Made by a program: the position numbers and the translations under genes
The notes under the pieces: generated by a model
What the model was told of the DNA's origin: nothing
Seen by the model: the letters and a program-made list of their open reading frames with translations, nothing else
The model's database searches: none
Source of the DNA: Candidatus Planktophila sp.
Lineage (GTDB): Bacteria; Actinomycetota; Actinomycetes; Nanopelagicales; Nanopelagicaceae
Direction of reading: 5' to 3'
DNA length: 64,000 bases
Assembly (NCBI GenBank): GCA_030681675.1
Contig: JAUXRP010000012.1
Coordinates: forward strand, 1-64,000
Shown: positions 26,274 through 28,608 of the stretch, piece after piece
How the letters are laid out: each line of letters begins with the position of its first letter
How positions within the stretch are numbered: position 1 is the stretch's first letter

Positions 26274-26279
26274 GTGATT

Positions 26280-27191
26280 ATGACAGAGCACACGCGAGTA
26301 GATGGGTTTCTTACATCGCTCATCGCAATATGCACCCCACTGGATTCTTTTGATATGCCTCTTTTAGATGCTCACGGGGCAACACTTTCTGAGGATATCT
26401 ATGCGGGCGAGCGCTTGGTCATGCGCGCCGGTAGTCGAATTCGATCAACACAAATCGGTCTTGCAGCATCGATTGGGCGAGATCATCTACCGACTCGCCC
26501 CCATCCGCGAGTTGTAGTTCTCTCAGCCGGTCCAGATCTCGTTGAACCAGGGAAAAGCCTTGTAGGTGAAGAAAAGTTCGAAGTCAATTCTTGGTTGCTC
26601 ACGACGGCCGTGCGTGAAGTTGGAGCAGTTGCATACCGAGTTCATTCAATTCCAGATGATGAAGACGAGCTCCAGGGCGTTATTGAAGATCAATTAGTTC
26701 GGGCGGATCTAATAATTATTAGCGGTGAGAGACAGGATGAATCTTTTGATCTTATTACCCGCACTCTCTCCAGAATGGGCGAGATAACTACTGTGGATAT
26801 GGCCGTTGAAGTAAGCGGGCGACATAACTTTGGGCAGATCGGCCCGGATAAGACGCCTGTCGTTACTCTGCCAGGGGATCCGATTGCAGCCTACATTTCC
26901 TTTGAACTCTTTGTTCGTCCAATGATTCGAACCATGCTTGGTGCGGCAACTATTCATCGCCCCTCAGTAAAGGCAAAGCTTGAAAAAGCAGTTGAATCGG
27001 CCCCAGGAATGCGCTCCTATATCCGCGCGGTGCTATCTGAAGATGCAAAATCCGTGATGCCGCTCAGTGATCAGGAGGAGCTGTCCACACTCTCGAATGC
27101 CAATGCTTTTATCGCAGTTGGGGAAAAAGAGATTTCATTGTTGGCTGGAGATGAGGTTACGGTAGTGATTCTTGAGCGAAGATATATATAA
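26280..27191 (+). CDS. glp: Glp, gephyrin/MoeA-like protein lacking one MoeA domain
   Basis: The 303-aa protein is MoeA-related: AGSRIRSTQIGLAASIG, RPHPRVVVLSAGPDLVEPG, PDDEDELQGVIEDQL and TLPGDPIAAYISFELFVRP are clear. Ordinary MoeA has about 400 residues. Here the chain passes directly from LSEDIYA (near residue 43) to GERLVMRAGSRI, so the domain that normally begins with SAMDGYA is gone. The MoCF motif GGxSxGxxD reads SGERQDESFDL. Molybdate insertion is therefore unlikely. In corynebacteria the homologue Glp binds FtsZ and its membrane receptor GlpR in division and polar growth, and a GlpR-like gene lies two genes downstream. A structural role in division is my inference. Confidence 0.82.
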   Translation: MTEHTRVDGFLTSLIAICTPLDSFDMPLLDAHGATLSEDIYAGERLVMRAGSRIRSTQIGLAASIGRDHLPTRPHPRVVVLSAGPDLVEPGKSLVGEEKFEVNSWLLTTAVREVGAVAYRVHSIPDDEDELQGVIEDQLVRADLIIISGERQDESFDLITRTLSRMGEITTVDMAVEVSGRHNFGQIGPDKTPVVTLPGDPIAAYISFELFVRPMIRTMLGAATIHRPSVKAKLEKAVESAPGMRSYIRAVLSEDAKSVMPLSDQEELSTLSNANAFIAVGEKEISLLAGDEVTVVILERRYI

Positions 27192-27198
27192 ATAAGAG

Positions 27199-27783
27199 AT
27201 GAAGCAGAGCTGGCCCCACATTCTCAATGGAGATGAAATCTCCTTGCGGCCACTCAGGTTTCGAGACCATAGTAGATGGAATGCAGTTCGCGCCGAGAAT
27301 CGAGCATGGCTTTCGCCATGGGAGGCGACAATTCCACTTCTTTATCCATCAGATACAGCCGATGAGCCCGCTATCACGCTTCCCTCGTACTTTGAAATGG
27401 TTCGAACTCACAATAGTGAGGCCCGGCATGGTCGTTCATTCTCATTTGCCATGTGGAAAGAGAGAAATTTGATAGGGCAAATCTCACTAGGTGGGGTTAT
27501 TTACGGTGCATTGCGTGGAGGCCATATCGGTTATTGGATTGACCGTAACTATGCAAATAAGGGTTACACGAGTCAGGCAGTGGTTCTACTTACTGATTTT
27601 GCATTTAACACGTTGAAGCTCCATCGTATTGAGATAAATCTTCGGCCAGAGAATGGTGCATCGCGTAGGGTGGCAGAGAAAGCTGGCTATATCTTCGAGG
27701 GAAATCGGTCTAACTACTTGCATATCGATGGAAATTGGCGCGATCACATCTGTTTTGTTAAGGAAAATCTCTCCATTAAGTAG
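27199..27783 (+). CDS. GNAT acetyltransferase, RimJ-like
   Basis: This 194-aa protein has the layout of ribosomal-protein N-terminal acetyltransferases: ISLRPLRFRDHSRWNAVR at the start, GQISLGGVIYGALRGGHIGYWID in the middle strands, YANKGYTSQAVVLLTDFAF for acetyl-CoA binding (R/QxxGxG/A region replaced by NKGYTS) and LRPENGASRRVAEKAGY near the end. It lies 7 bp after glp and 48 bp before glpR. The same position in Mycobacterium holds rimJ (Rv0995). Its target in this module is unknown. Confidence 0.86.
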   Translation: MKQSWPHILNGDEISLRPLRFRDHSRWNAVRAENRAWLSPWEATIPLLYPSDTADEPAITLPSYFEMVRTHNSEARHGRSFSFAMWKERNLIGQISLGGVIYGALRGGHIGYWIDRNYANKGYTSQAVVLLTDFAFNTLKLHRIEINLRPENGASRRVAEKAGYIFEGNRSNYLHIDGNWRDHICFVKENLSIK

Positions 27784-27831: not shown

Positions 27832-28608
27832 ATGGCTTCCGGACTAATTTATATTGCGATCATCGGCATGTGGGTCGCATATTTTGCACCCCGTTGGATC
27901 CATGACCGGAACGAATTTTCTGGTAAATCAGTTGAGCGGTTTAAAGTTGCTCTGACCGTTGTGGCAAATTCTTCACCGCACACAAGTCACAACGGTGGAC
28001 TTCTCCATATTGATTTAGATCGTGAAGCAAAAATTGCACAGTTACTTCTGCAGAGACGAATAATTTTTGTTCTACTAACTTTTTCACTAATATCAACGCT
28101 TGTGGGTGGGTTTATGAATACGATGCCTTTCTTGTATGCACTTGTTCCTGCAACTGGTATTTTGATTTATGTTGCAAACGTTCGACGCCAAAGTGTCGCT
28201 GAGCGAATTCAGCATCGTCGCATACAACAATTGCATAGACGAACTTCTGGAGTCTCGGCAACTAATCTGGTTGAGGTAGTTACACCTAAACCTTCCCAAG
28301 AACATTGGGTCCCACTATCTGAGCGCGAACTTAAAGGTGTTGTGATATTGCCTCAAGGGACTGCGAGCATGCGTAATGCTTGGCAACCGGCTGAAGTTCC
28401 TGTCCCTACTTATGTAAGTGCTCCGAAAGCAATAGTTCCAAAACGAGTAATTGATTTAACTACTCCGGGAGCATGGAGTGAGGAGCAAGAACGTCTCGAG
28501 CGCGAAGCTTTGGCCGCGACCGCTCCCTCACGAAATGAGATATTTGATCAACAACTTGCCGATGAGGCAGTTCAACGTTTGAATCAGTCTCGGGCATCTA
28601 ACGAGTAG
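27832..28608 (+). CDS. glpR: GlpR-like membrane receptor of Glp
   Basis: The 258-aa protein has a membrane helix at residues 2-19 followed by WVAYFAPRWIHDRNEFSG, a start characteristic of the actinobacterial family that includes Rv0996. Two more helices lie at about 70-112 (IIFVLLTFSLISTLVGG and MPFLYALVPATGILIYVA). A long cytoplasmic tail rich in charged residues and Pro follows. In C. glutamicum the equivalent protein recruits Glp to the membrane. Synteny with glp and rimJ supports the assignment; sequence identity was not measured. Its stop codon abuts that of the convergent pmt gene. TATCTT 8 nt before the ATG may be the -10. Confidence 0.75.
   Translation: MASGLIYIAIIGMWVAYFAPRWIHDRNEFSGKSVERFKVALTVVANSSPHTSHNGGLLHIDLDREAKIAQLLLQRRIIFVLLTFSLISTLVGGFMNTMPFLYALVPATGILIYVANVRRQSVAERIQHRRIQQLHRRTSGVSATNLVEVVTPKPSQEHWVPLSERELKGVVILPQGTASMRNAWQPAEVPVPTYVSAPKAIVPKRVIDLTTPGAWSEEQERLEREALAATAPSRNEIFDQQLADEAVQRLNQSRASNE

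Follow-up and report, generated by a model that had tools for sequence, protein, structure and literature searches.

In Corynebacterium glutamicum, PMC10522489 describes the C-terminal tail of FtsZ as bound on domain IV of Glp, at the centre of the dimer and away from the putative active site, through a contact that consists partly of main-chain hydrogen bonds to strand 360-363. According to the same paper, deletion of the Glp loop abolished binding of both FtsZ and GlpR, which suggests that the two partners use overlapping regions of Glp, and cells whose GlpR lacks IDR2 show an elongated, multiseptal phenotype. A figure legend in that paper places domain II of C. glutamicum Glp at residues 46-145. 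That Glp has lost its enzymatic role was proposed earlier from sequence and active-site geometry alone, in a survey (PMC11733289) that retained a hit only if it matched each of the three Pfam domains, MoeA_N among them. Because MoeA_N was required, a Glp devoid of domain II would fall out of this survey. Our search of the literature, at the level of titles and abstract openings, returned no Glp without domain II and no report of DivIVA or MreB in Nanopelagicales.

Here we describe such a protein. It is encoded in a 64,000-nucleotide stretch of DNA, analysed as a whole and called the window below, that comes from a metagenome-assembled genome (MAG) of Ca. Planktophila (family Nanopelagicaceae, acI, bacteria that abound in lakes; 1.83 Mb, 46 contigs, 97.9% complete). 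Our preferred reading, to which we assign a probability of roughly 0.68, is that this protein is a Glp that has lost its enzymatic domain and serves, together with GlpR, as a scaffold in a divisome without Wag31. The gene and the elements that define it are as follows.

26280..27191, + strand: Glp without domain II, 303 aa, MoeA/gephyrin E fold reduced to domains I, III and IV
26403..26411, + strand: domain II junction, A42-G43-E44, placed by alignment with full-length relatives
26499..26510, + strand: Glp-type PxPR signature, P74-R77, the hinge that joins domain I to domain III
26685..26708, + strand: EDQLVRAD helix of domain III, common to short and full-length Glps
26721..26753, + strand: degenerate MoCF motif, SGERQDESFDL against GGxSxGxxD, from sequence and alignment

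The open reading frame spans 26274-27191 from a GTG start and gives 303 aa from the ATG at 26280; the Glp of the nearest named record (Candidatus Planktophila sp.) is 98% identical. The Pfam profiles MoCF_biosynth (41.1 bits) and MoeA_C (35.6 bits) both match above cut-off. MoeA_N, which covers domains I and II, scores 14.2 bits against a cut-off of 30.8 and is matched only at profile positions 133-160 of 160. Among NCBIfam models, Glp_gephyrin (NF045515) ranks first with 262 bits and MoeA_actino second with 190 bits, both below their own cut-offs. The best stretch for Glp_gephyrin covers profile positions 138-403 of 403, and the score falls short of the curated 475 bits since the short protein has no counterpart to much of the model.

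Alignment with full-length family members shows that the chain passes directly from DIYA to GERLVM, a jump that replaces ∼100 residues including WDNSAMDGFAV. In C. glutamicum numbering the gap, read off the alignments, corresponds to about residues 40-151. Judged from these alignments, the missing segment is all of domain II, cleanly removed, with domains I, III and IV kept, so that the four-domain MoeA fold is reduced to three. The catalytic motifs that define MoeA molybdotransferases, i.e. a domain II with SAMDGYA and GGxSxGxxD, are both absent: where a full-length relative reads SGGVSQGVYD, the window Glp reads SGERQDESFDL. Hinge 2 and the EDQLVRAD helix are retained. Hinge 2 reads PxPR in all 84 aligned Glp rows, including the window Glp, as opposed to RKPR at the same position of the separate MoeA of this genome. 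The Pro-rich hinge 1 region reads APEP in C. glutamicum, PLDSF in the window and PLxPF in the family consensus. Within EDQLVRAD, six of eight positions are invariant across the 23 rows of one alignment (A1), and seven of eight are common, at ≥80%, to the short Glps of Nanopelagicaceae, those of a second group (genus g81, below) and other Glps. A sequence-only reading of the window had proposed a reduced Glp that had lost a whole domain and the MoCF motif and kept its C-terminal domain, and the profile matches and alignments agree with it on all three points.

AlphaFold2 modelling from 50 sequences gave five single-chain models, the best with a pLDDT of 86.6 and a pTM of 0.85 and the other four with pLDDT from 81.1 down to 59.7. 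In the best model the junction (residues 31-50) has a mean pLDDT of ∼92-93, and domain I is predicted to be re-closed by a tight β hairpin formed by strands 40-42 and 45-48. The closest solved structure is C. glutamicum Glp 8bve (phmmer E value 7.9e-34), and Foldseek agrees. When Foldseek matches were ranked again by structure only, the best model superposed on Cnx1E at 2.2-2.3 Å (300 residues), on E. coli MoeA 1g8l at 2.5 Å (296 residues) and on 8bve at 3.3 Å (291 residues). The predicted monomer thus fits closed MoeA/Cnx1E (2.2-2.5 Å) more closely than open Glp (3.3-3.5 Å).

Most sampled genomes of this family carry the short form. Among 61 Nanopelagicaceae genomes, 59 had a Glp match, of which 54 were short (one of them, G048, with a broken frame), four full-length and one a fragment with part of domain II; two genomes had no match. 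The short form occurs in 15 of the 17 genera sampled. A larger, overlapping draw from the order yielded 151 genomes, all of them Nanopelagicaceae, with 144 short forms (counting the partial G136 and G151, which has stop codons), four full-length Glps, one weak MoeA-like match and two genomes with none. The sequence-only reading had left room for the domain being present in close relatives; it is present in just four genomes, which belong to two other genera (g6 and g15), and absent from 144. That the gap is an assembly error or a local deletion in the window MAG is ruled out by this distribution, which includes single-contig genomes and Ca. Planktophila versatilis (NZ_CP016774.1), and we put the chance of it close to nil. 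The full-length Glps of g6 and g15 (L061 and L062; 404-405 aa) have SAMDG and GGVSxGxxD intact and score above the Glp cut-off (507 and 543 bits versus 475). In their loci moaC comes next after glp (the g15 contig breaks off within it), and in g6 mogA, a GNAT gene and glpR come after moaC; by comparison, the short-clade locus has lost domain II, moaC and mogA. Glp loci of the Nanopelagicaceae type also turn up in public MAG records under the titles Streptomyces griseus, Bifidobacterium breve or Streptomycetaceae, which look wrong (L111, L112, L121, L124, L125, L136, L148 and L156; also L132, L135, L142, L166 and L171).

A class-wide sample of 296 genomes, 265 of them outside Nanopelagicaceae, was searched, its best matches were itemised and 22 genomes, most with weak matches, were re-examined. 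Among these, the sole standout from outside the family was G272 (family f34, genus g81), whose glp encodes 307 aa without domain II in the order galU-glp-GNAT-glpR. Further short forms may exist, for example in most of families f4, f31, f32 and f41, which lie outside the 22. Of the 22 g81 genomes listed, 16 have a contiguous short form, two a partial one at a contig end and four no Glp-grade match. Two other f34 genera, g82 and g133 (two genomes each), encode Glp in its full length; g121, g123, g129, g131 and g136 yielded no Glp-grade match (one unmatched genome of the f34 survey is unlisted). It is as if Glp had been lost altogether in these five genera, which suggests that small genomes can do without it.

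To place the two short groups, we built a careful tree with domain II columns excluded, using 41 of the 57 rows of a quick tree and omitting L059 and L060 (long branches), four MoeA-labelled rows (no outgroup was needed) and ten others. Both short groups form clades with 100/100 support, and two changes are needed. An AU test, made with the quick tree already known, rejects a single origin for all short Glps (p = 0.0066); support for where exactly g81 branches in its order is weak (75/75). Because a single origin is rejected, g81 is, on these alignments, a lineage that lost domain II independently of Nanopelagicaceae. The stems leading to the short clades are long, at 1.08 and 1.34 changes per column against a median end branch of 0.27. 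Other Glps conserve, at ≥90%, 36 positions that neither short clade keeps, and 31 of these fall within the deleted columns. The window protein falls in the Glp clade rather than with MoeA, grouping at 100/100 with the full-length Nanopelagicaceae rows that pass the Glp cut-off. Three of the four MoeA-labelled rows of the quick tree fall outside; the fourth, L202, joins a Glp row and itself scores as a Glp (491 bits). By profile ranking, trees and the PxPR hinge, the window protein is of the Glp lineage, as the sequence-only reading had it.

Loss of domain II might have been coupled to loss of moaC and mogA at the locus. This fits the family of the window and fails in f34: there moaC is already gone from four sister loci whose Glp is full-length, so the two losses are separable. 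In two full-length Glp loci (L061 4219-5155, with mogA; L273 4910-5401), moaC lies between glp and the GNAT gene; these genes are missing from short loci.

Long stems before each short clade, together with sporadic broken copies such as G048 and G151 with their stop codons, are what would be expected if short glp were a decaying pseudogene, a leftover Moco gene in streamlined genomes. We find this scarcely credible. Comparison of the window gene with 11 relatives (the 11 of 15 pairs with estimable dS; the other four are saturated) gave dN/dS values of 0.03-0.07, with dS above 1.5, close to saturation, in nine of the 11 and values of 0.06-0.07 for two close pairs. Short glp is under purifying selection, which leads us to reject decay, and its presence in 144 of 151 genomes, conserved synteny and confident predicted fold also argue against it.

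The enzymatic role appears to be covered by other genes or dispensed with. On contig C3, the window genome has a complete MoeA with SAMDGYA beside MoaC and MogA/MoaB-like, MoaE-like and MobA-like genes, with NuoF-like and NuoE-like genes (the latter named by eye) in the same region; the scores of MoeA, MoaE, MobA and NuoF are below curated cut-offs. The genome also codes for the alpha subunit of a formate dehydrogenase, which matches TIGR01591 at 873 bits (cut-off 666). The short glp is thus not the only moeA homologue beside a molybdoenzyme, and with a separate MoeA, a Moco operon and formate dehydrogenase in the genome, short Glp need not make Moco. No MoeA_N match was found in 47 of the 61 family genomes, including all eight single-contig genomes, each of which has a short Glp; altogether 45 of the 61 combine a short Glp with no MoeA_N match anywhere. 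It is conceivable that the protein is still catalytic or cofactor-binding, for example as a Moco carrier or as an enzyme that borrows domain II from a separate MoeA, and domain III does keep the MoCF fold. However, GGxSxGxxD is lost and those 45 genomes offer no MoeA_N match to borrow from, so that we hold this to be very improbable. A separate small ORF supplying domain II was also considered and rejected: the sole PF03453 match in the window genome lies inside the complete MoeA. The Moco operon (L049 and L277, contig C3) lies near an NAD-type formate dehydrogenase and near a formate-THF ligase and a sarcosine/dimethylglycine dehydrogenase-like gene (both named by eye), and four single-contig genomes of the same genus in the family sample have no MoeA_N match.

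Downstream of glp are the two genes that the sequence-only reading had called RimJ-like and GlpR-like, names with which the best profile matches agree.

27199..27783, + strand: RimJ-like GNAT acetyltransferase, conserved between glp and glpR
27832..28608, + strand: GlpR/SepX-like membrane protein, 258 aa, NCBIfam SepX_GlpR_2 (NF050099)
28381..28431, + strand: GlpR tail motif WQPAEVPVPTYVSAPKA, a conserved pattern

NF050099 is the best match of the window GlpR (91.4 bits, below the cut-off of 150), and the GlpR beside the full-length Glp of g6 also scores below it (134 bits). Gene order is glp-GNAT-glpR in 98 of the 100 loci whose flanks are long enough to tell, and the two misses (L269 and L271, both g133) have GNAT and GlpR look-alikes by eye. 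The pattern W-x(2-10)-P-x-P-x-Y occurs in 132 of 134 GlpR ORFs, compared with seven of 2680 shuffled sequences; some loci in this count and in the gene-order count share a genome. By eye, the motif follows the last membrane stretch on its C-terminal side, at the place of IDR2. Its VPxPTYV resembles the DVPDFM of the FtsZ tail.

The site at which Glp would contact FtsZ is the least certain part of the scaffold reading.

27027..27065, + strand: equivalent of the FtsZ-contact hairpin (C. glutamicum 360-370), shortened and without Tyr369

We aligned this site in 84 rows (25 short and three full-length Nanopelagicaceae, 16 short g81, four full-length f34 and 36 others). Tyr369 is absent from all 41 short Glps (25/25 Nanopelagicaceae and 16/16 g81) and from the four full-length f34 proteins, and is present in the three full-length Nanopelagicaceae and in 26 of the 36 others. 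M361 is replaced by Ser in the window Glp, which therefore has neither M361 nor Y369 of the C. glutamicum loop, and Met is found at this position in none of the 84 rows, hence in none of the 36 other full-length Glps. In the short Nanopelagicaceae rows, the V338 site is hydrophobic in 22 of 25 and the L360 site in 25 of 25, while the L343 site is mostly polar, as in most other Glps. The hairpin is shorter in most of them (gap at 368 in 17/25) and not in g81. In the window model, a strand-turn-strand is predicted at the hairpin (245-252 and 258-261). The FtsZ tail of the window genome, EDEIDVPDFMK, conforms to the pattern (D/E)-h-D-V-P-x-F and resembles the C. glutamicum tail DDLDVPSFLQ. A search for SepF in 15 genomes was positive in 14.

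These data bear on a possible but doubtful alternative, in which short Glp has dropped FtsZ and serves GlpR only, or GlpR with SepF or another partner, as a receptor-bound adaptor with changed partners. The pattern of Tyr369, missing from every short Glp and kept in most others, including the full-length proteins of the same family, points that way, as do the retention of glpR beside glp and the conserved GlpR tail motif. On the other hand, the FtsZ tail is still of the DVPDF type, and the main-chain bonding to 360-363 described for C. glutamicum (PMC10522489) would suit the strand-turn-strand predicted here. Moreover, since M361 is absent from 36/36 other Glps and Tyr369 from 4/4 full-length f34 proteins, the C. 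glutamicum loop itself may be special and its contacts not general. Binding of FtsZ by short Glp is therefore possible. The sequence-only reading had called the protein a minimal FtsZ/GlpR-binding unit, a label that is unwarranted and that we avoid because the contact hairpin is altered.

Polar-growing actinobacteria are usually pictured differently from what we find for elongation in the Nanopelagicaceae genomes tested, which have MreB and no DivIVA match. No DivIVA/Wag31 (PF05103) was found in any of 12 Nanopelagicaceae genomes, including the window genome and two with full-length Glp, whereas MreB was found in all 12 (E < 1e-150). Absences in MAGs hinge on completeness; the closed genomes G016, G018 and G009 agree on the lack of DivIVA. 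The same PF05103 search was positive in C. glutamicum and in two of two g81 genomes. MreB was not found in these two g81 genomes, which yielded only frames of >600 aa at ∼1e-16 to 1e-20 that we take to be DnaK. Likewise, four Nanopelagicaceae dcw loci (L305, L306, L307 and L309), with the order sepF-yggT-ileS (yggT and ileS named by eye), have no divIVA in between, whereas g81 has one. Corynebacteriales, with Wag31 present and MreB absent (PMC10522489), are thus the reverse of the Nanopelagicaceae tested.

A change of elongation system in step with the domain loss was considered, and the data do not show one: short Glp is accompanied by MreB but not DivIVA in Nanopelagicaceae and by DivIVA but not MreB in g81 (two genomes), and two genomes without DivIVA, G005 and G014, have full-length Glp. 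Because no Wag31 was found in the 12 genomes, a GlpR relay to Wag31 like that of C. glutamicum cannot operate in them. The sequence-only reading had suggested selection for the scaffold role alone and had cited the link to polar growth in corynebacteria. It is supported in that the module is kept, purifying selection acts on short glp and the enzymatic domain is lost; the link to polar growth fails.

Short Glp descends from Glp and, as far as can be inferred, works like it. In the scaffold reading that we prefer, the molybdotransferase domain II has been excised, leaving domains I, III (MoCF fold without the catalytic motif) and IV as a remainder capable of scaffolding, which would keep the central dimer face and drop the distal enzymatic one. 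Most likely, short Glp is a soluble and presumably dimeric adaptor that the membrane protein GlpR keeps at the division site; the FtsZ C-terminal tail probably holds it too, alongside SepF. With GlpR as its membrane anchor, it would sit at the Z-ring and cross-link FtsZ and/or GlpR there. Dimerisation, GlpR binding and septal location are what we infer. As no Wag31 was found, its output would go either to the divisome or to the MreB system. Points that weigh against this reading are the changed FtsZ-contact residues, the closer fit of the model to closed MoeA/Cnx1E than to open Glp, the spread in pLDDT over the five models, the scores of Glp and GlpR below their cut-offs and the five f34 genera that gave no Glp-grade match. 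The persistence of Glp-GlpR in MreB-type cells without Wag31 also invites a broader idea, speculative and on balance unlikely, that Glp-GlpR is an ancient, Wag31-independent actinobacterial divisome scaffold whose enzymatic domain was discarded at least twice. GlpR would then dock via W-x-P-x-x-V-P-x-P-T-Y-V, an FtsZ-tail-like motif (compare D-V-P-D-F-M), and its tail would compete with FtsZ for one shared pocket.

Two independent natural excisions of domain II with glp-rimJ-glpR kept are much stronger evidence for a lost enzymatic role than was previously available, and the repeat loss in a separate group suggests that the catalytic part is unneeded for the scaffold job. Together they form a natural truncation series on what a MoeA-derived scaffold requires. 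The presence of the module in MreB cells without detectable Wag31 raises the question whether Glp-GlpR regulated the polar elongasome from the start or took on that task later, in polar growers.

Comparison with known systems sets the short protein apart from each of them. It shares with C. glutamicum Glp (8bve/8bvf), its closest solved structure, the PxPR hinge, a nearby glpR and a degenerate MoCF motif, but the C. glutamicum protein is complete in its four domains and carries the FtsZ loop M361-L370 (PMC10522489), whereas the short one has no domain II, a short hairpin and no Tyr369. The full-length Glps of g6 and g15 belong to the same family and group with the short clade at 100/100, with GNAT and glpR nearby in g6, but they keep domain II, SAMDG, GGVSxGxxD and moaC after glp (with mogA in L061). 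MoeA molybdotransferases, such as E. coli MoeA and the MoeA on C3, share the fold of domains I, III and IV and differ by the domain II, SAMDGYA and GGxSxGxxD that short Glp lacks. SepX/GlpR divisome proteins are represented two genes downstream of glp by the window GlpR, which best matches NF050099, although below its curated cut-off and with a short N-terminal cytoplasmic region (by eye). The E domain of animal gephyrin is a MoeA independently reused as a receptor-bound scaffold but, as described in PMC11733289 and PMC10522489, it is four-domain and has kept its Moco enzyme role. Because it lacks one of the four domains (domain II), the loop and a score above the family cut-off, we set short Glp apart from plain Glp, as a variant form of the same lineage.
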